Below the pieces are notes generated by a model. The model had not been told where the DNA came from. It saw only the letters and a program-made list of their open reading frames with translations, and did not search any database. This document shows, one piece after another, positions 1,697 to 29,012 of a stretch of 64,000 nucleotides of DNA. A program made the position numbers and the translations under genes. Each line of letters opens with the position of its first letter. Positions within the stretch are counted from its first letter, which is position 1. The stretch comes from Candidatus Melainabacteria bacterium (GTDB lineage Bacteria > Cyanobacteriota > Vampirovibrionia > 2-02-FULL-35-15), in the NCBI GenBank assembly GCA_023250195.1, contig JAHFBF010000004.1, positions 193,675-257,674 of the forward strand. The letters run 5' to 3'.

Positions 1697-1727
1697 GTTT
1701 TCTTCATTCTACTTTGAACCTTTAACT

Positions 1728-2240
1728 TTAATTTAGTGTTGGTCTTCTTGAGCGTTCAAGAAAGCATGTGGCAGAACCTGAAAGCATTAAACCATCCACT
1801 CCAAAGACAGGTACGCCGATTAGATTTCCCGGATCTACAAAAGGAATTTTTAAAGAAGGATCACTGGCAGGTGGAAATATTACATTTACAACTACTTTTG
1901 TGCTTGTAGCTCCGTTTGCTTGTCCGCCTGCTACTGTACTGTTATTTGCAGCATCAGTAACATTAAATGTAAACTGGTTTGAATCAACAACAGATCCTGG
2001 AAAACGAACCTGATCTGCATAGGTGGTAAAACCTGCAAGATCATAGGTAGATGTTCTCTTTGCGTTTATAGCAATTTTGCCTGCCACTTGCTGGGCAGCT
2101 ATTCCAAGAGTGTTGTATATATAAAGAGCTCTTGACAGTTCTACTAAGCTGAACATTAATAGTAAAAAGATGGGTATTGTCAAAGCTGTTTCTGCTAAAA
2201 CAGCCCCAATATTTCCTCTTTTTTTATAGTTATTGTTCAT
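1728..2240 (-). CDS. TadE-like minor pseudopilin
   Basis: A 170-aa protein with a short basic N-terminus, then a motif of the form GAVLAETALTIPIFLLLMFSLVE, where the E after the processing region and the hydrophobic helix are characteristic of TadE-like pilus proteins (PF07811 type). The rest is a small polar C-terminal domain. It overlaps the preceding tadE-like gene by 4 bp, suggesting translational coupling. Expected role: minor pseudopilin matured by the prepilin peptidase encoded upstream. Confidence 0.85.
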   Translation of the reverse strand: MNNNYKKRGNIGAVLAETALTIPIFLLLMFSLVELSRALYIYNTLGIAAQQVAGKIAINAKRTSTYDLAGFTTYADQVRFPGSVVDSNQFTFNVTDAANNSTVAGGQANGATSTKVVVNVIFPPASDPSLKIPFVDPGNLIGVPVFGVDGLMLSGSATCFLERSRRPTLN

Positions 2241-2779
2241 CTTTCTAAACGTCCTTCTATCTGGAATATTGCTTTTGACATGAGAGTTTTATTGCTTTGA
2301 AAGATATTGCCAGGATTAAAAACTGCAGGGATAGGAGTGTTTACACTAGCTCCAGCTCCCGGATAAGTAATTTCAACTTGTATAAAATCAATTGAGTCTG
2401 GATTATTCTTTCTATCAAAAGGAAGATTATCCGGGGCATTCTGAATTTCGGTTCCGGCTGGATTTAAATATTTAATTGTAAATTGTCCAGGCTCTTCTAT
2501 TACGCCCATAACTCTTACACTATTTCTTATTAGAGTCTCAATGCTGGCTCTTGAAATCGTATTATTGCTCATAAAGTTAACATCAACACTTTCTTTAATT
2601 GATGCTCCAATTCTTGCAGCTTCCCGGGCACCATATTCTAAAGTGTTTTGTAAATAATATATTCTTGAAACTTCAAATATAGCCCCTATAAGCATTATGA
2701 TGAATGGAAGAATAACGACGAGTTCAGTAAAAGCACTACCTTTTTGGGTTCTATTCGTGATTTTTTGTAGAGACTTCAT
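2237..2779 (-). CDS. TadE-like minor pseudopilin
   Basis: A 180-aa paralogue of the next gene. The N-terminus KGSAFTELVVILPFIIMLIG has the Glu-containing pseudopilin signature followed by a transmembrane helix, then YLQNTLEYGAREAARIGAS, the usual TadE alpha-helical extension. The stop overlaps the start of the following gene by 4 bp. A 129-bp gap separates it from cpaB upstream. Role in Tad/Flp pilus biogenesis is inferred from family and neighbours. Confidence 0.85.
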   Translation of the reverse strand: MKSLQKITNRTQKGSAFTELVVILPFIIMLIGAIFEVSRIYYLQNTLEYGAREAARIGASIKESVDVNFMSNNTISRASIETLIRNSVRVMGVIEEPGQFTIKYLNPAGTEIQNAPDNLPFDRKNNPDSIDFIQVEITYPGAGASVNTPIPAVFNPGNIFQSNKTLMSKAIFQIEGRLER

Positions 2780-2908
2780 AGTTTATTTAAAAAGCTTCCT
2801 TAGATTTATCTACCCTAATTATAGGAATAAAAATAAGTTAAGATTGTGATTGAATAAACATTGAAATAAAGTTTTAGTTTATCCCTAAGGGCTAGCAGTT
2901 ATTTTGCG

Positions 2909-3781
2909 TTAGTAATAATAATAAGTTCTTTGATCACCTAAAATAATTTCAATTGCATTTTTGTCTGCATTTGTTCCTGTAGGGGTTATGGGTATGTTTG
3001 CTGTCTGGTTATTACTACTGGAAGCTATATAACCATAAACATCTTCTAGATTAGCGCCAGATGTTATTGCTGACTGTTTTTCACTAAGTGGCCTTAAAAC
3101 AAGATGTAATTGGCCTGTCTCAGAGGCAAGGGCTAGTTTTTCTACATCTTTTGGAAGTAAAGCAAATGTTACCTGAGAAACGATTTTAGCCTGAGGATCA
3201 GAGAAAGTGTTTGGATCAAATATTTTGTCTCCAACTGCTACAACAAGTACACTTTGCAAAATTGTTTTTGAAAAAGTTTGATCCTCATTTCTCTTTAATG
3301 TAGAAATAATATCTACATGATCGCCAGGGCTGATAAATCCTCCAATACCGACTACTTCATTTACCCGAATTGTTATAGCTCTATAACCTAAAGGGATTAC
3401 TACTGCAAGTCCTCCAGCAGCACCTTCACCGACCAGTCTTCCCTGTGTAATTACCTCATCAGCATCAATTGTACTTTTTACAATGCGTCCTTTGAGGGAG
3501 TCTATTGAGCTTGGATAATCTTTTGGAACTGCCTGAGCAGGTAATTGTTTTATTGCAAGGTCACTGTCTTCAAGTTTTTTACCTGCCGGAATTTGCTTGC
3601 TTGCTACAACTACAGCTCTGGTAACAGTAAGTTCTTTTACTTTTTGTTGAGTTTTATTTAAGTACTGCCAAATTCCAATTGCAGCAATTAAACCCAGAAC
3701 AACAGCAATAACAATCATTATGACAAGAGAACTGATTTTGTTCTTTGTTTTAGGTGTAAAAGATGTTGGGTTTACTGCCAT
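2909..3781 (-). CDS. cpaB: Flp pilus assembly protein CpaB/RcpC
   Basis: A 290-aa protein with one N-terminal membrane helix (about residues 18-42), then a SAF domain (about 52-118; SKQIPAGKKLEDSDLAIKQLP) and the RcpC domain with the conserved SPGDHVDIISTL segment (about 150-160). This is the domain order of CpaB/RcpC, a periplasmic component of the Tad secretion channel. It overlaps the upstream prepilin peptidase gene by 10 bp. The partner secretin is not in the window. Confidence 0.92.
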   Translation of the reverse strand: MAVNPTSFTPKTKNKISSLVIMIVIAVVLGLIAAIGIWQYLNKTQQKVKELTVTRAVVVASKQIPAGKKLEDSDLAIKQLPAQAVPKDYPSSIDSLKGRIVKSTIDADEVITQGRLVGEGAAGGLAVVIPLGYRAITIRVNEVVGIGGFISPGDHVDIISTLKRNEDQTFSKTILQSVLVVAVGDKIFDPNTFSDPQAKIVSQVTFALLPKDVEKLALASETGQLHLVLRPLSEKQSAITSGANLEDVYGYIASSSNNQTANIPITPTGTNADKNAIEIILGDQRTYYYY

Positions 3782-4272
3782 ATGACTATATTAAAAATAC
3801 TGTTTGCTCCAAACATTATATATAAGATTGTTCCCAATAAGATAGCAATGCCATAAGGAATCTTTTGTTTTTTATCTATAACAGGTAATATTTGTCCTGT
3901 TGTTATCAGGAATTTAAGACGACCTGGATTAAAAAGGAGCCAGATAATACCTAAAATTAACCCACAGATTGCAGTGTAAAAAAAGATAATGATACCCCCT
4001 TTATATCCAGCTATAGCTCCTAATGCGCCAAGTAGTTTTACATCTCCTGCACCCATCCCTCCGGCAATATAAGGGATGGACAAAAGAGCAAGGCCTGTTA
4101 GTAGCCCAAACAAAGAATGTAAAAAGCCATGAAGTCCTGAATAAAAAACATTGAGTGAAAATATTATTGCAAGACTACCAAAAGTAAGCCAATTTGGAAT
4201 TCTTCTGAATCTCAAATCATATATTGCGCCGATAGAGGCAACTAATAAAAGAGATATTATTTCAAAATACAT
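3772..4272 (-). CDS. Prepilin peptidase, A24 family (TadV/CpaA type)
   Basis: A 166-aa polytopic membrane protein. The two aspartates of the aspartic prepilin peptidase active site are visible: one in IYDLRFRRIPN near residue 20, and one in the GAGDVKLLGALGA motif near residue 76 (the GxGD signature). The short length, without the cytoplasmic methylase insertion of PilD, fits the TadV/CpaA subfamily that processes Flp pilins. It lies directly downstream of a flp gene and overlaps cpaB, so the whole block is probably one transcript. Confidence 0.92.
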   Translation of the reverse strand: MYFEIISLLLVASIGAIYDLRFRRIPNWLTFGSLAIIFSLNVFYSGLHGFLHSLFGLLTGLALLSIPYIAGGMGAGDVKLLGALGAIAGYKGGIIIFFYTAICGLILGIIWLLFNPGRLKFLITTGQILPVIDKKQKIPYGIAILLGTILYIMFGANSIFNIVIWQ

Positions 4273-16531: not shown

Positions 16532-17608
16532 ATGAAAAAGTTTTTGCGCAATCCAAAGGGTTCAAGAGATTGGCTTCCTAACGAAGTAATAAAACAGGAA
16601 TTTGTCAGAAAATCACTTGTTAAAGTTTTTGAGTTATGGGGATACCAGCCCATTCAAACACCTATATTAATTAACTGGGACACCTTAACACATGGGAGCA
16701 CAAAGCTCTCAGACATTGCGTTTAAGCTAATTGGTCAACAGGGGGATCTTTTGGCACTAAGAGCTGATCTCACCACGCCAATAGCTAGAGTAACTGCTGA
16801 AAGACTAAAAGGAGAGAAATTACCGTTTAGGTTTTATTATGTAGGAAAAGTTTTCAGATATCATGCTAGAAAAACTACAAATGAAAGAGAACTATACCAG
16901 GTAGGAATTGAGCTGATTGGTGCAAAAGAAGGGGCATCGGATCTTGAATGCTTAAAAATACTTCTTGAGAGTTTTAATAAATTAGGACTAAAAAAATATC
17001 TTGTTTCGATTAATCATACAGATCTCTGGAATGAGCTTTTTAAGTATTTTGGGGATATTGCGATTGAGTTATATAAAGCGCTTTCTAAAAAAGATTTCAT
17101 TTTGTTTAAATCAATTATAAATAAATCAAGCCTATCCAAATCAGAAAAAATATTCTGGAATGAATTGATAAAAATTAAAGGAAACAGGGGAGCAATAGCG
17201 CACATAAAAAAATCCGGCGGATTAAAAAAGAGGCTAAGTAAAGTTGTTTCCTCTTTTGAAAAAATCAATGGTTTGTTTGGGGACAATGTCCAGATTGATT
17301 TGAGCTTAACCAGTGATTTAGATTATTACACAGGAATCTATTTTGAAGCAATTACTCCATATGTAGGAAGAAATCTTGGTTCTGGTGGAAGATATGATCA
17401 ATTAATCAACAATTTTGGATTTAATATTCCAGCTATTGGATTTTCACTTTGTCTTGAAGATTTACTCTTAGCCCTTGAATTGCAGGGGAAAACTTTTGAA
17501 GGGTTTAAACTCCCCAAACTTTTTTCATCCGGTAAGAACATTAAAAAAACCTTTGATGCTATAAATAAACTACACAAAAAAAATAAAAGCGCAACTTTAA
17601 AGCTATGA
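16532..17608 (+). CDS. hisZ: ATP phosphoribosyltransferase regulatory subunit HisZ
   Basis: A 358-aa class II HisRS-like protein: NPKGSRDWLPNEV at the N-terminus, motif 2-like FYYVGKVFRYHARKTTNERELYQVGIELIG, and GRNLGSGGRYDQLI. It lacks the C-terminal anticodon-binding domain of histidyl-tRNA synthetase. Its stop overlaps the start of a short-form HisG by 4 bp. Short HisG needs HisZ as regulatory subunit in the first step of histidine biosynthesis, so context and length both favour HisZ over HisS. Confidence 0.9.
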   Translation: MKKFLRNPKGSRDWLPNEVIKQEFVRKSLVKVFELWGYQPIQTPILINWDTLTHGSTKLSDIAFKLIGQQGDLLALRADLTTPIARVTAERLKGEKLPFRFYYVGKVFRYHARKTTNERELYQVGIELIGAKEGASDLECLKILLESFNKLGLKKYLVSINHTDLWNELFKYFGDIAIELYKALSKKDFILFKSIINKSSLSKSEKIFWNELIKIKGNRGAIAHIKKSGGLKKRLSKVVSSFEKINGLFGDNVQIDLSLTSDLDYYTGIYFEAITPYVGRNLGSGGRYDQLINNFGFNIPAIGFSLCLEDLLLALELQGKTFEGFKLPKLFSSGKNIKKTFDAINKLHKKNKSATLKL

Positions 17609-18228
17609 AAACATCTAGAGATGAATTAACAATTGCTATTCCAAAAGGCTTTTTACATGATGGAAGTTACAAGTATCTTTCGTCACTGGGAATTAATTTT
17701 GAAACAGAAAGTTCACGGGACCTGCTTTTCTATGATAAAAAAAATAAGATAAAAGGACTTCTTGTAAGGCCAAGTGATGTAAGTGTTTATGTTGAACATG
17801 GGAGTGCAGATCTTGGAATTGTTGGATCTGATCTTTTAATGGAGCAGGCACCGGATGTTATAAAGCTAAAGGATCTGCATTTTGGAAAATGTAAGCTTGT
17901 GCTGGCGGTAAAAAAAGATTCAATGTATAGGAAATCAGAAGATCTTCCTGCTAATTCAAAAATTGCTACCAAGTTTACAAAACTTGCAAATGATTTTATT
18001 CATAAAAAAGGACTTTCTGCTGAAGTTATCAAGCTTTATGGTTCTGTGGAATTAGCTCCAATATTAAGTTTAAGCGATGCCATAATTGATCTTGTTGCTA
18101 CCGGAAAAACATTAAAAGCAAATAATTTAGTTTCTATTGAAACAATTTTAGAAAGCAGTGCAATCTTGGTTGCAAACCCTGTAGCATTTAAGTTTAAGAA
18201 ATCTATAATTAGCCTTATGCTTGATTAA
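17605..18228 (+). CDS. hisG: ATP phosphoribosyltransferase, short form
   Basis: A 207-aa enzyme for condensation of ATP and PRPP, the first step of histidine synthesis. Recognisable pieces are IAIPKGFL, LVRPSDVSVYVEHGSADLGIVGSDLL and the phosphate-binding region IIDLVATGKTLKANNL. It lacks the C-terminal histidine-sensing domain of the long form, matching its coupling to hisZ (4-bp overlap). hisD is at 29768-31042, so the his genes are scattered. Confidence 0.95.
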   Translation: MKTSRDELTIAIPKGFLHDGSYKYLSSLGINFETESSRDLLFYDKKNKIKGLLVRPSDVSVYVEHGSADLGIVGSDLLMEQAPDVIKLKDLHFGKCKLVLAVKKDSMYRKSEDLPANSKIATKFTKLANDFIHKKGLSAEVIKLYGSVELAPILSLSDAIIDLVATGKTLKANNLVSIETILESSAILVANPVAFKFKKSIISLMLD

Positions 18229-18299: not shown

Positions 18300-18328
18300 T
18301 AGACAAATTGTCCTAAATACTTTACAAT
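18300..18328 (+). promoter_or_regulatory. Candidate sigma70-type promoter
   Basis: TAGACA at 18300-18305, a 17-bp spacer, and TACAAT at 18323-18328, 38 bp upstream of the ATG of the beta-helix protein. The RBS AGGAGTAAGGG lies between. Confidence 0.5.
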
Positions 18329-18365
18329 AGCAACAAGTAATAAAACATAACTAGGAGTAAGGGAC

Positions 18366-18887
18366 ATGAACCTCTGGATGGTCCTTAATAGAGCTTTTTG
18401 GAATAGAAAAGCTAAGCCACGCTTTTCTGCAAACGTTCAGTGTCTCACTGATGGTGAAACCATTGGAGAGGTTTCTGTTGGAGAAAATACGAATATTGGA
18501 AAGAGCAAAATAATTTCAAGAAACAGTTCTATTATTGAAATTGGCAGAAATACGAACATAAGAGATCATGTTTTGATTTATGCGGATGAACCAGATTCTG
18601 CAAAATCAAACGACATATTTATAGGAAATAAAGTTTTTATATCAAGTGATGTTGAAATCTATGGACCAGCTTTAATTTCTGATGAAACATTTATTGGCAA
18701 TAAAACAATGATAATAAATTCAGACATTGGAAAAGGCTGTCTGATTGAAGACAATGTTCTGATTAAGAATGTTGTTATCCCTTCAAATATAGTTATTCCA
18801 AGCAGATCTGTAATTGATTCAACGGAAAGTTTAAATGAAGTAATTAATAGTAGTAATAAAGGAGACTGTTGTGAGATTTTTTATTAA
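18366..18887 (+). CDS. Left-handed beta-helix protein resembling the gamma-carbonic-anhydrase domain of CcmM, without zinc histidines
   Basis: A 173-aa protein made of hexapeptide repeats (IGEVSVGENTNIGKSK and so on). From residue 56 on it follows the remembered CcmM gamma-CA domain nearly register for register: EIGRNTNIRDHVLIY, IFIGNKVFISSDVEIYGPA, FIGNKTMIINSDIGKGCLI, NVVIPSNIVIPSRSVI. At the three zinc-histidine positions of gamma-CA it has Y72, S94 and Y99, so carbonic anhydrase activity is unlikely. It carries its own promoter candidate and RBS and is not in an operon. The alternative is a generic hexapeptide protein. Function unknown. Confidence 0.7.
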   Translation: MNLWMVLNRAFWNRKAKPRFSANVQCLTDGETIGEVSVGENTNIGKSKIISRNSSIIEIGRNTNIRDHVLIYADEPDSAKSNDIFIGNKVFISSDVEIYGPALISDETFIGNKTMIINSDIGKGCLIEDNVLIKNVVIPSNIVIPSRSVIDSTESLNEVINSSNKGDCCEIFY

Positions 18888-18903: not shown

Positions 18904-19836
18904 CTATCTTGATTTTAAGAAATTATTTTCACCTTTTGAGTTATAAAGCGTATTTCTCCACCTGCTTGCAAGATTTAATTTCTTATGTAAATTCTTTGAT
19001 TTTGTTTTTGCCATTTTAAGAATATCTTTTAACTCTTTAATGTATACAGGAAGCAGTTTCTGGAGTATAGAATTGTTTGAAGTTAATAAACCGGAGTTCA
19101 TTTCTGGATTTCCCCCAGCAATTCTTGTAATATCCCTGAAACCGCTTGAAGCAAAAGTTGATGCTAATTTTCTAAAGTAGGATTCTTTTATTGTTTGGCA
19201 TAGCCCGATTGATGCAAGAAGCGGCAGGTGACTTATAAGTGCCACAGCTTCATCATGTTCTTCAGGAGTAGTGATTACTGGTTTTGCACCAATTTTTTTT
19301 ATAATTGTTTGTATTGTTGTTATTGATTTTTTATCTTTAGCTGTGGGAGTTAAGATCCAGGCACAGTTTTTAAATAAGTTTTTTTGTGCTGCAGAAAATC
19401 CGGATTTTTCTGTTCCTGCCATGGGATGTCCGCCAATAAAAAAACTGTAAGGGCGTGATTTATCACGCCCTGTTAATGGTTCATTAGTAAGAAAATGTTT
19501 ATCTGCATAATCACAAATCTCACTTTTTGTACTGCCAACATCTGAGATAATAATTCCTGGTTTTAGCTTTAATCCTGAAATTTTACTTAGGTAGTTTGTT
19601 ATTAAATGCAATGGAGTGCAAATAAAAATCAAATCAATATTTTCCAATGATTTGGGACTAAGCTTTGTATAACCTTTAGTGATCGCTTTTTCTTTTAATG
19701 CTAATTTTATTGTCTTTAAGCTTTTTGTTATGCCGGTAACTTTGTAACCTTTTTCTTTTAAGGCTTTTGCAAGCGATCCTCCAATCAATCCAAGACCAAT
19801 TATTGCGATTTGTTTTAGATTACTTTTAGATGTCAT
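18904..19836 (-). CDS. tyrA: Prephenate/arogenate dehydrogenase with an in-frame palindrome insert
   Basis: A 310-aa NAD(P)-dependent enzyme of tyrosine biosynthesis. The Rossmann start is IAIIGLGLIGGSLAKAL, followed by FICTPLH, SDVGSTKSEI, and the catalytic HPMAGTEKSGF (H137). Between the KSEI helix and GGHPMAG there is an unusual stretch (about residues 116-131, NEPLTGRDKSRPYS) encoded by a palindromic repeat at 19446-19473; the frame is kept. The stop is 17 bp from the end of the convergent beta-helix gene. Confidence 0.92.
   Translation of the reverse strand: MTSKSNLKQIAIIGLGLIGGSLAKALKEKGYKVTGITKSLKTIKLALKEKAITKGYTKLSPKSLENIDLIFICTPLHLITNYLSKISGLKLKPGIIISDVGSTKSEICDYADKHFLTNEPLTGRDKSRPYSFFIGGHPMAGTEKSGFSAAQKNLFKNCAWILTPTAKDKKSITTIQTIIKKIGAKPVITTPEEHDEAVALISHLPLLASIGLCQTIKESYFRKLASTFASSGFRDITRIAGGNPEMNSGLLTSNNSILQKLLPVYIKELKDILKMAKTKSKNLHKKLNLASRWRNTLYNSKGENNFLKSR
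19446..19473. repeat. 28-bp GTA...TAC palindrome inside tyrA
   Basis: The core gggcgtgat/atcacgccc forms a 9-bp perfect stem with a 2-nt loop; the outer bases are degenerate. On the coding strand it reads as TGRDKSRPY. It belongs to the 28-bp palindrome family seen at seven other sites. Confidence 0.75.
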
Positions 19837-19903: not shown

Positions 19904-20650
19904 ATGCCAAAACTCTGTATAAATATTGATCATATTGCTACTGTCCGTGAAGCCAGGAAAACTATTGAGCCTGATCCGATACTTGGTGCACAACTTGCAA
20001 TACAAGGTGGTGCAGATGGAATAACTGTTCATTTGCGTGAAGACAGACGACATATTAATGACAGGGATGTACTTTTGCTAAGTCAGAATATAAAAAATGT
20101 TCTTTTTACTCTGGAAATGGCTGCAACGGATGAGATGCTTGAAATATCTTCAAAGGTAAAGCCGGGACTTATTACACTTGTACCTGAAAAAAGACAGGAA
20201 TTAACTACTGAGGGAGGATTAAATGTAATTGGTCAGAAGAAATATTTAAGTGATTATACTTCCAAACTTCATAAAAATAATTTAACTGTAAGCATTTTTA
20301 TAAATGCAGATAAAGAGCAGATAAAAATAGCAAAAGAGATTGGGGCTGACTTTGTAGAGATTCATACAGGTTCATATGCGGAAAATCCAAATGAAAAAGA
20401 GTTTAATATAGTAAAAGAAGCAGTTGAATATGCCAGAGTACTTGGACTAAAAACAAATGCAGGACATGGACTAAATTATCAAAATACAGGATTGATAGCA
20501 GCTGTTAAAGGAGTTGAACAGTTACATATAGGCCACTCGATTATAAGCAGAGCGGTAATAGTGGGTATTAAAGAAGCTGTCAGGGAAATGAAAAAACTAG
20601 TTGAAGAATCAAAGATATATAAAGAAGCAGAGAAAATCTCAGGGAATTAA
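19904..20650 (+). CDS. pdxJ: Pyridoxine 5'-phosphate synthase
   Basis: A 248-aa TIM-barrel enzyme that joins 1-deoxyxylulose 5-phosphate and aminoacetone phosphate in vitamin B6 synthesis. The family signature is present: LCINIDHIATVREARK, GADGITVHLREDRRHI, KPGLITLVPE, and GLKTNAGHGLNYQN. The start is the ATG at 19904 (MPKLCINIDH); a possible upstream TTG at 19862 would lie within the palindromic repeat and add 14 non-conserved residues. Followed by a terminator at 20752. Confidence 0.95.
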   Translation: MPKLCINIDHIATVREARKTIEPDPILGAQLAIQGGADGITVHLREDRRHINDRDVLLLSQNIKNVLFTLEMAATDEMLEISSKVKPGLITLVPEKRQELTTEGGLNVIGQKKYLSDYTSKLHKNNLTVSIFINADKEQIKIAKEIGADFVEIHTGSYAENPNEKEFNIVKEAVEYARVLGLKTNAGHGLNYQNTGLIAAVKGVEQLHIGHSIISRAVIVGIKEAVREMKKLVEESKIYKEAEKISGN

Positions 20651-26756: not shown

Positions 26757-27209
26757 ATGTCTACAACTGCAACATTACCATTTGTTGTTACTACTCATGA
26801 TCCTAGAATTCAAGCTTTCAAAGCAGCTTCTGGTCCTGCACTTAGAACTTCTGCAAAGACATTCCCATACGCCAAAAAATTTAGTCCAAGTAATGATACC
26901 GGTATTTTATTGAATCAGGTTGATGCAGAATACTCTCGCTGTAATGAACATAGTCATTTATTGGATGCAGGACTGATTTCTGCTATTCGTGAACAAGCAC
27001 CCACAGTAGAAGATTTTTTTAATCTTACATATAAAGATTTAGAAATAATAATGAGTTCTAAATATGCGGGATCTCGAGCATCAGAACTATTCTTGGACTA
27101 TCTTGCTTCGAAACTTAATATCACAAGAGACAGAGGAGCTCTTGATGTAACTAATCCTGTTGATAGAAATAAAACAATACAAAAAATCTTATATCCTACA
27201 AAAGCTTAA
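26757..27209 (+). CDS. Unknown protein, second gene of a two-gene unit
   Basis: A 150-aa soluble protein. The N-terminus is disordered (STTATLPFVVTTHDP); residues 55-140 look helical (AEYSRCNEHSHLLDAGL, FFNLTYKDLEIIMSSKY). No known motif recognised. It follows the 26282 gene closely and probably works with it. It converges on the GlmU-type gene with a 4-bp overlap. Confidence 0.7.
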   Translation: MSTTATLPFVVTTHDPRIQAFKAASGPALRTSAKTFPYAKKFSPSNDTGILLNQVDAEYSRCNEHSHLLDAGLISAIREQAPTVEDFFNLTYKDLEIIMSSKYAGSRASELFLDYLASKLNITRDRGALDVTNPVDRNKTIQKILYPTKA

Positions 27210-27862
27210 TTTTGCTTTTTTACCCAGTTTAATTTATTTTCCTGTTTGGGTCTTGTAATAGCCAGTGCTTTTTTAGGGACATTTTTTGTAACTACTGAAC
27301 CTGCTGCAACTATTGCATCTTCATTAAGAGTAACCGGAGCTACAAGAACAGAATTTGAACCTGTTGAGGCTCTATCTTTAATAATCGTTTTATTCTTTTT
27401 GCCGGTAGCAGAATTATAATTTGCAGTAATTGTACCTGCACCGATGTTTACACTTTTCCCAATCTTTGCATCTCCAATGTAACTTAAATGAGCAATTTGA
27501 GTATTGTCTCCAATTACGGAATTTTTTATTTCAACAAAGTTGCCAATTTTAATATTATTTTTTATTATGACATTGTCCCGCAGTCTTGCATAAGGACCAA
27601 TCTTATTGTGATTTCCAATGATTGAATCCGTAATATGGGAAAATGTAATGTTGTTTCCACTGCCAATAGTAATAACACCTTCCAGATATAAATTAGGACC
27701 CAGAACATTTTTAGGACCGATTTTTATCTTCCCCTTTAAGAAGGTATTTGGATAGATAACATTACCTTTTGAGAGCTTAACTTCATTTCCTATATAAGTA
27801 TTTCTTGGATCTAAGATTGTAATTCCTTTATCCTGAAATTTTTTTATAACCTTCTCGTTCAT
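27206..27862 (-). CDS. GlmU-type left-handed beta-helix acetyltransferase, without uridylyltransferase domain
   Basis: A 218-aa protein equivalent to the C-terminal half of GlmU: linker helix then GITILDPRNTYIG, repeated hexapeptides, IGPYARLRDN, IGNFVEIKNSVIG, HLSYIGDAKIGKSVNIGAGTITANY, and APVTLNEDAIVAAGSVVTKNVP. These are the acetyl-CoA and glucosamine-1-phosphate site residues of GlmU. The N-terminal nucleotidyltransferase half is absent, so uridylylation would need a separate protein (inference). Start chosen at ATG 27862, as the alternative at 27895 would overlap the divergent gene. Confidence 0.85.
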   Translation of the reverse strand: MNEKVIKKFQDKGITILDPRNTYIGNEVKLSKGNVIYPNTFLKGKIKIGPKNVLGPNLYLEGVITIGSGNNITFSHITDSIIGNHNKIGPYARLRDNVIIKNNIKIGNFVEIKNSVIGDNTQIAHLSYIGDAKIGKSVNIGAGTITANYNSATGKKNKTIIKDRASTGSNSVLVAPVTLNEDAIVAAGSVVTKNVPKKALAITRPKQENKLNWVKKQN

Positions 27863-27884
27863 AGTATAAAATGATAGCAGATTT

Positions 27885-29012
27885 ATGATTAACACACTTA
27901 ATATTGAAAAAAGACAACAGATGCAAAATGTAAAATCTTATTCATTTATTACAAAGTCAAAAGAATGTCAGAACTTTGTAGATAAGACAAAAGGTAAAAA
28001 ACCGCTTTTTGTTCTTGTAATTGGAAGTACTGAAACTGCTTTAATTCCCGGCATTTCTGCTGCGGGGCAAAATATAGAACAACTAAAACACACTCCTGCG
28101 CTTGATGCTGATTTTCTTGTTTCAAAACCTGAAGAGTTTACTGGGAAAATTCCTGTTTCACCAGGTGGCATCCCGTCTCCGGTAATTTTATCCAAAGCAA
28201 TGGTTGAACTCCTGGGCTTGGATGTAAGCATTGTAGATGTAGGAGCTTTTATAAAACCCGAAAGAATTCATGTGGATTTAAATATGGGTCCTGCCGCATG
28301 CTTAACGACAGGACTAGCACTTGGTCCAGTTAAAACAAGTTTTCTTTTCCAGAAAGGTGAAAAACTGGGCTTGAATCTTTCTAATTATCCTTATGTTGTA
28401 ATTGGTGAATGTGTTCCTGGTGGGACTACTACAGCATTAAGTGTTTTATGTTCATTGGATATTAATGCTTTTGATCTGGTTAACAGCAGTTTCCCTGAAG
28501 GAAATCATCTATGGAAAAATCAGACTATAAAAGATGCACTGCTTAATCATTCAGAGAAGTTCTCTTCCATAAAGAAAAACCCATTGAAAGCCATTGAGTA
28601 TTTTGGTGATCCAATGCAGGCATTTATTTGTGGTTTTATAAAAGGTGTTCAGAAGGCGAATCTGCCGATTATGCTTGCCGGCGGTTCACAAATGCTTGCC
28701 GTTTATTATGTCTCAAAACTTCTTACCGGATTTAATCCTTATGATACGGTTGTAGCGACTACTTCCTGGATTACAAATGATAAAAACGCAAAAACAAAAA
28801 GACTTGCAGAACTTGTAAATGCTCCTCTTATTTCATCAAATATAAATTTTAAAGAATCAAAACATAAGGGACTTTATGCTTATGAAGAAGGACATATAAA
28901 AGAAGGTGTTGGAGCTGGTGGATTAATGGTGGCAGCTGATTTATATAAAAATATTTCGCAGCAAAGCATTATTGAAGAAATTGAAAAGGTTTATTCACAA
29001 ATAATTCTTTAA
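27885..29012 (+). CDS. CobT-like nicotinate-nucleotide phosphoribosyltransferase (archaeal/cyanobacterial type)
   Basis: A 375-aa protein of the family I know as TIGR00303, which replaces or resembles CobT in archaea and cyanobacteria: FVLVIGSTETALIPGISAAG, LDADFLVSKP, ECVPGGTTTALSVL, MLAGGSQMLAVYY, and the C-terminal EGHIKEGVGAGGLMVAADL. The expected role is activation of the lower-ligand base for cobamide assembly. It converges with cobS, overlapping by 18 bp, which strengthens the assignment. A start at 27921 is possible. Confidence 0.82.
   Translation: MINTLNIEKRQQMQNVKSYSFITKSKECQNFVDKTKGKKPLFVLVIGSTETALIPGISAAGQNIEQLKHTPALDADFLVSKPEEFTGKIPVSPGGIPSPVILSKAMVELLGLDVSIVDVGAFIKPERIHVDLNMGPAACLTTGLALGPVKTSFLFQKGEKLGLNLSNYPYVVIGECVPGGTTTALSVLCSLDINAFDLVNSSFPEGNHLWKNQTIKDALLNHSEKFSSIKKNPLKAIEYFGDPMQAFICGFIKGVQKANLPIMLAGGSQMLAVYYVSKLLTGFNPYDTVVATTSWITNDKNAKTKRLAELVNAPLISSNINFKESKHKGLYAYEEGHIKEGVGAGGLMVAADLYKNISQQSIIEEIEKVYSQIIL

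Follow-up and report, generated by a model that had tools for sequence, protein, structure and literature searches.

A predicted metal-free, non-catalytic gamma-carbonic-anhydrase-like protein in a family of Ca. Melainabacteria

Profile comparisons of a 173-residue protein encoded in the window, by which we mean the whole 64,000-nucleotide stretch of Ca. Melainabacteria DNA analysed here, firmly indicate that it belongs by descent to the gamma-carbonic anhydrase (gamma-CA) superfamily and, within it, to the branch of Cam and CcmM. Comparison with orthologues and characterised relatives establishes, at the level of sequence, membership of the beta-helix family, loss of the three zinc ligands and most other catalytic residues, a missing C-terminal helix region, a conserved gene order and purifying selection. 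On balance we favour the reading that the protein is a lineage-specific, metal-free and non-catalytic gamma-CA-like trimer of the Cam/CcmM branch used for docking or scaffolding, which arose within its family (Ca. Melainabacteria/Caenarcanales) from a Cam-type enzyme. The change from enzyme to non-catalytic protein is already known among gamma-CAs, and the present protein is a lineage-specific new case; no description of a metal-free gamma-CA-like protein from Melainabacteria was found in the literature searched. The protein is of interest as a metal-free gamma-CA-like protein that is both free-standing and conserved, in a lineage sister to the Cyanobacteria; were it a scaffold, it would independently exemplify the enzyme-to-scaffold switch behind the non-catalytic CcmM domain.

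The open reading frame described in the initial annotation is a real gene with an ATG start preceded by a putative ribosome-binding sequence. The features of the protein and its surroundings are as follows:

16532–17608 (+): hisZ-like gene (HisRS paralogue), conserved upstream neighbour (Pfam PF13393; synteny)
17605–18228 (+): hisG, conserved upstream neighbour (Pfam PF01634; synteny)
18300–18328 (+): possible sigma-70-like promoter, TAGACA-17-TACAAT, in the gap between hisG and the gene (weak)
18353–18357 (+): AGGAG, putative ribosome-binding site 8 bases 5' of the ATG (read from the sequence)
18366–18887 (+): coding sequence of the gamma-carbonic-anhydrase-like (predicted non-catalytic) protein, 173 aa (open reading frame with ATG start; NCBIfam CcmM 70.4 bits, Cam 58.9 bits; orthologues in 8/11 family genomes)
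18453–18821 (+): left-handed beta-helix domain, approximately residues 30–152 (hexapeptide repeats; profile alignments over residues 16–157; model strands, moderate confidence)
18579–18581 (+): Tyr72 codon, first zinc-histidine position (Cam His81); Y, Y, L, K, R, K, C and S in the eight orthologues
18645–18647 (+): Ser94 codon, second zinc-histidine position (Cam His117); Ser in 8/8 orthologues
18660–18662 (+): Tyr99 codon, third zinc-histidine position (Cam His122); Y, Y, Y, Y, E, N, H and Q in the orthologues
18904–19836 (−): tyrA-like prephenate dehydrogenase gene, convergent neighbour (Pfam PF02153, PF20463)
19904–20650 (+): pdxJ, conserved downstream neighbour (Pfam PF03740)

Promoter-like sites in the gap between hisG and the gene (4, versus 5.0 expected from shuffles) are not above chance. 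Pfam identifies hexapeptide repeats in the protein, whose predicted end lies approximately where the C-terminal helix of Cam starts, leaving that helix region absent. An AlphaFold model based on an alignment of 7 sequences reached only moderate confidence (mean pLDDT 70.8) and gave no PDB match in Foldseek at E ≤ 0.001, for which reasons the fold assignment rests on sequence. Scans of viral contigs, meant to deepen the alignment, returned no matches.

Ranked against NCBIfam, the protein matches CcmM first (70.4 bits, E = 1.5e-19) and Cam second (58.9 bits, E = 5.1e-16), while the third family falls to 32.6 bits (E = 4.5e-8). The CcmM score lies below the cut-off of 550 for NF053794, a 320-position model that exceeds a bare gamma-CA domain, which could not be expected to reach this value. 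For the eight orthologues, too, this model gives the best E-values of any model. The resemblance to CcmM noted in the initial annotation is real and far beyond chance, although it is not confined to the second half of the protein as proposed there but spans nearly its whole length (residues 16–157), with IYGPALISDETFIGNKT aligning to the IHGPA..FIGF segments of CcmM. The best PDB matches in a single-sequence search were dGCA1, CcmM (3kwd) and Cam, and a profile of the eight orthologues retrieved CcmM (86.5 bits), dGCA1 (85.0 bits), Cam (78 bits) and a second CcmM (70 bits), with the remaining gamma-CAs, including the mitochondrial ones, at about 51 bits or less. Unrelated hexapeptide acyltransferases (LpxA, GlmU, LpxD and others) were considered and rejected as the parent group, the best profile match being to none of their families and the Cam and CcmM models lying far ahead. 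As controls, the GlmU-like protein of the window and LpxA proteins did not have CcmM among their top matches, and they scored 10.6 bits and at most 41.8 bits, respectively, against the family profile. Profile-profile comparison likewise gave 123–152 for the gamma-CA groups versus 62 for LpxA and 52 for GlmU. The GlmU-like gene itself (27206–27895, −) encodes a stand-alone GlmU C-terminal (acetyltransferase) domain with the uridyltransferase half absent.

Within the gamma-CAs, the initial annotation had proposed a specific sister relation to CcmM. We regard this as an improbable origin, in which an ancestor of Melainabacteria and Cyanobacteria would have possessed a CcmM-like gamma-CA domain that survives here without Rubisco-small-subunit-like repeats. 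Among NCBIfam models CcmM indeed ranks first for the window protein and all eight orthologues, it is the top PDB match of the family profile, and in an unrooted tree restricted to Cam and CcmM the family falls on the CcmM side (93/92); however, that tree has no outgroup, its bipartition gives no root, and outgroups move the family away. Profile-profile scores favour Cam-type proteins (151.7) and a plasmid-locus gamma-CA group (147.0) over CcmM (136.3), with small CamH-like gamma-CAs at 122.6. Matches of individual proteins to the family profile reach 95.9 bits for Cam-type proteins of family f6, 90.0 for CcmM, 85 for Cam and 81 for family f5. When 382 genomes of the class were scanned, the eight orthologues came out at 250–279 bits, followed after a gap by f6 Cam-type proteins at up to 97 bits and f5 proteins at about 69–81 bits. 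The nearest relative found outside the family, a Cam-type enzyme from within the class (97 bits), bears the triad, and all aligned f5 and f6 Cam-type proteins have an intact zinc triad. These enzymes of other class families are also nearer to CcmM than the window protein is, f5 proteins scoring up to 197 bits against the CcmM model versus 70.

Maximum-likelihood trees recover the family as one clade on a branch of 2.6–2.9 changes per site, and its position shifts with taxon sampling: in one tree it joins the plasmid gamma-CAs (82/87), and in another it lies outside Cam plus CcmM. We do not accept the former grouping, in which two long branches meet and which may reflect long-branch attraction. 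The plasmid-locus proteins (Vibrio, Pantoea and Gluconobacter; adjoining folE2 and thrS in Pantoea) have the histidine triad that the window protein lacks. AU tests reject neither a grouping with CcmM nor one with Melainabacterial Cam, and accept alternatives equally, including joining to f6 (p 0.51), f5 plus f6 (p 0.51), f11/f20 (p 0.47) and f5 (p 0.26). Owing to the long branch the exact parent of the family cannot be placed; sisterhood with CcmM is one of several options, and the link was over-read in the initial annotation. The origin of CcmM itself is better approached through the triad-bearing Cam-type enzymes of the other class families. For the window protein, we posit that the most likely origin is inside the family, from a Cam-type enzyme like those that the other class families still carry.

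Key differences from the active enzymes concern the metal site. A 52-sequence alignment and HMMER alignments to CcmM (3kwd) and Cam place Tyr72, Ser94 and Tyr99 at the three zinc-histidine positions, as the initial annotation had stated. By orthologue these positions read YSY, YSY, LSY, KSY, RSE, KSN, CSH and SSQ, such that none of the eight has a complete triad, which indicates that loss of the enzyme site is ancient in the family rather than an error in one genome. The protein aligns with Cam of Methanosarcina thermophila, which has triad-bearing homologues in f5 and f6, along the beta-helix (residues 10–158) and with the highest profile scores, but differs from it in lacking the zinc triad and the C-terminal helix region, in a shortened acidic loop, and in carrying Ile50, Arg52, Asn53 and Arg66 in place of Cam Arg59, Asp61, Glu62 and Gln75 (chain numbers in the alignment being one above the usual Cam numbering). 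The protein is therefore predicted neither to bind zinc nor to hydrate CO2, and its non-catalytic character and its kinship with the CcmM/Cam branch, both proposed previously, agree with the lost triad and the profile matches.

In place of the lost ligands the family has acquired new invariant residues: Lys89, Ser93, Ser94, Ser105 and Asn135 are identical in the eight orthologues, and two of these polar residues sit at the former metal site. Their conservation could be read as reuse of the beta-helix cleft by a small-molecule acyltransferase or binding protein, since beta-helix proteins often are acyltransferases. We consider this unlikely: no acyltransferase family comes close to the gamma-CA models in score, and the eight orthologues share no invariant histidine. 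Under the favoured scaffold reading, the protein would fold as the usual gamma-CA trimer without zinc and may act as an oligomer for docking or scaffolding, with the former active-site cleft and the faces of the trimer binding a partner protein or a small ligand. Two known systems provide the analogy. Some CcmM domains are non-catalytic and act as a trimer and docking module (PMC8580825), as in Synechococcus, and CcmM shares the gamma-CA branch with the window protein, which in contrast ends at 173 aa without small-subunit-like repeats, comes from a genome without carboxysome genes, and is not demonstrably closer to CcmM than to Cam. In plant mitochondrial complex I, gamma-CAL proteins have the gamma-CA fold, are missing zinc ligands and play a structural role (PMC7567890); like them, the window protein has a gamma-CA domain whose carbonic anhydrase activity motifs are lost.

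The likeness to gamma-CAL proteins, which also lack the ligands, raises the idea of an accessory-subunit role in respiratory complex I, whose 49-kDa subunit gene is present in all seven family genomes tested. This appears very improbable, as the plant subunits represent another gamma-CA subgroup with a weaker match, the gene has no nuo genes nearby in the window, it is missing from three of the 11 family genomes, and no other sign of a complex I link was seen for the protein. A complex-I/hydrogenase-like 49-kDa subunit gene does occur within 2 kb of the beta-CA-like gene in one relative (G002:C26, approximately 1721–3986).

Orthologues occur in eight of the 11 family genomes, in a conserved block comprising genes for two SPFH proteins, hisZ, hisG, the gamma-CA-like gene, convergent tyrA (in most genomes), pdxJ, and nagZ-like and fliJ-like genes. 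In G003 the gene is cleanly absent, with tyrA and hisG 8 bases apart and nothing between them, and in G007 another gene occupies its place; G004 (94% complete) has no hisG match and also lacks the gamma-CA-like gene. Absence from three of the 11 genomes indicates that the gene is not essential and is dispensable on evolutionary time. Among the three nearest species its dN/dS is 0.15–0.23 versus 0.06–0.17 for hisZ, hisG, tyrA and pdxJ (Nei–Gojobori; synonymous sites approach saturation). Purifying selection acts on the gene, which is maintained with another job. A decaying relic without function, as the word "relic" in the initial annotation could imply, is accordingly a highly unlikely account despite the lost catalytic residues, the fast-evolving branch and the clean absence in one relative, since the frame is intact in eight genomes, dN/dS is low and the new residues are invariant.

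As the initial annotation had supposed, carboxysomes appear to be missing: BMC shell proteins were detected in none of 60 genomes, the Rubisco small subunit domain (PF00101) had no match in 11 genomes, and no photosystem II reaction centre was found in the lineage. Every genome of the family except one encodes a Rubisco-family protein, the sole Rubisco-like type there. In the window's genome, genes for a HAD phosphatase and a class II aldolase follow this gene (L115:1606-2739) in the arrangement of methionine salvage, which makes form IV most likely; a Rubisco link to CO2 fixation was dropped on this ground. The lineage also has a beta-CA-like protein with CxDxR and HxxC motifs, and to judge from these motifs it may still possess carbonic anhydrase activity. 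As a partner, the beta-CA-like protein was rejected because the two show no correlation, G003 lacking both, G004 and G007 having only the beta-CA-like protein and G010 only the gamma-CA-like one; co-occurrence pointed to no partner.

Further gamma-CA-like proteins were recovered alongside the family. Those of f5 (L011, L016, L086-L094) are free-standing Cam/CcmM-type gamma-CAs with an intact triad, scoring 180–197 bits against the CcmM model, and those of f6 (L009, L010, L013) are Cam-type gamma-CAs with an intact triad and an N-terminal hydrophobic segment that is a probable membrane anchor. A 3.0-Mb genome of the phylum (G225) encodes a CcmM-like gamma-CA domain (L102) whose zinc-site residues are altered and whose reading frame stops at about 150 aa; it looks like a decaying CcmM. 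Six Cam-type proteins of f11 and f20 in the same phylum (L118, L119/L096, L120, L121, L122, L123) have all lost the histidine at the second zinc position, and most have lost others too, their triads reading H/P/H, H/Q/F, Q/A/H and, in three, T/A/R. Three of the six group as a separate clade in one of the trees, and zinc-site loss has probably occurred separately in a lineage other than that of the window protein. If f11 and f20 are non-photosynthetic, it is conceivable, though doubtful, that non-photosynthetic Cyanobacteriota made metal-free scaffolds from Cam-type gamma-CAs more than once, here and in the window protein's family, in which case the CcmM-type switch would be recurrent in the phylum and might involve a shared type of partner. 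For five of the six f11 and f20 proteins the full-length sequence was available, and these have a probable membrane anchor at the N-terminus.
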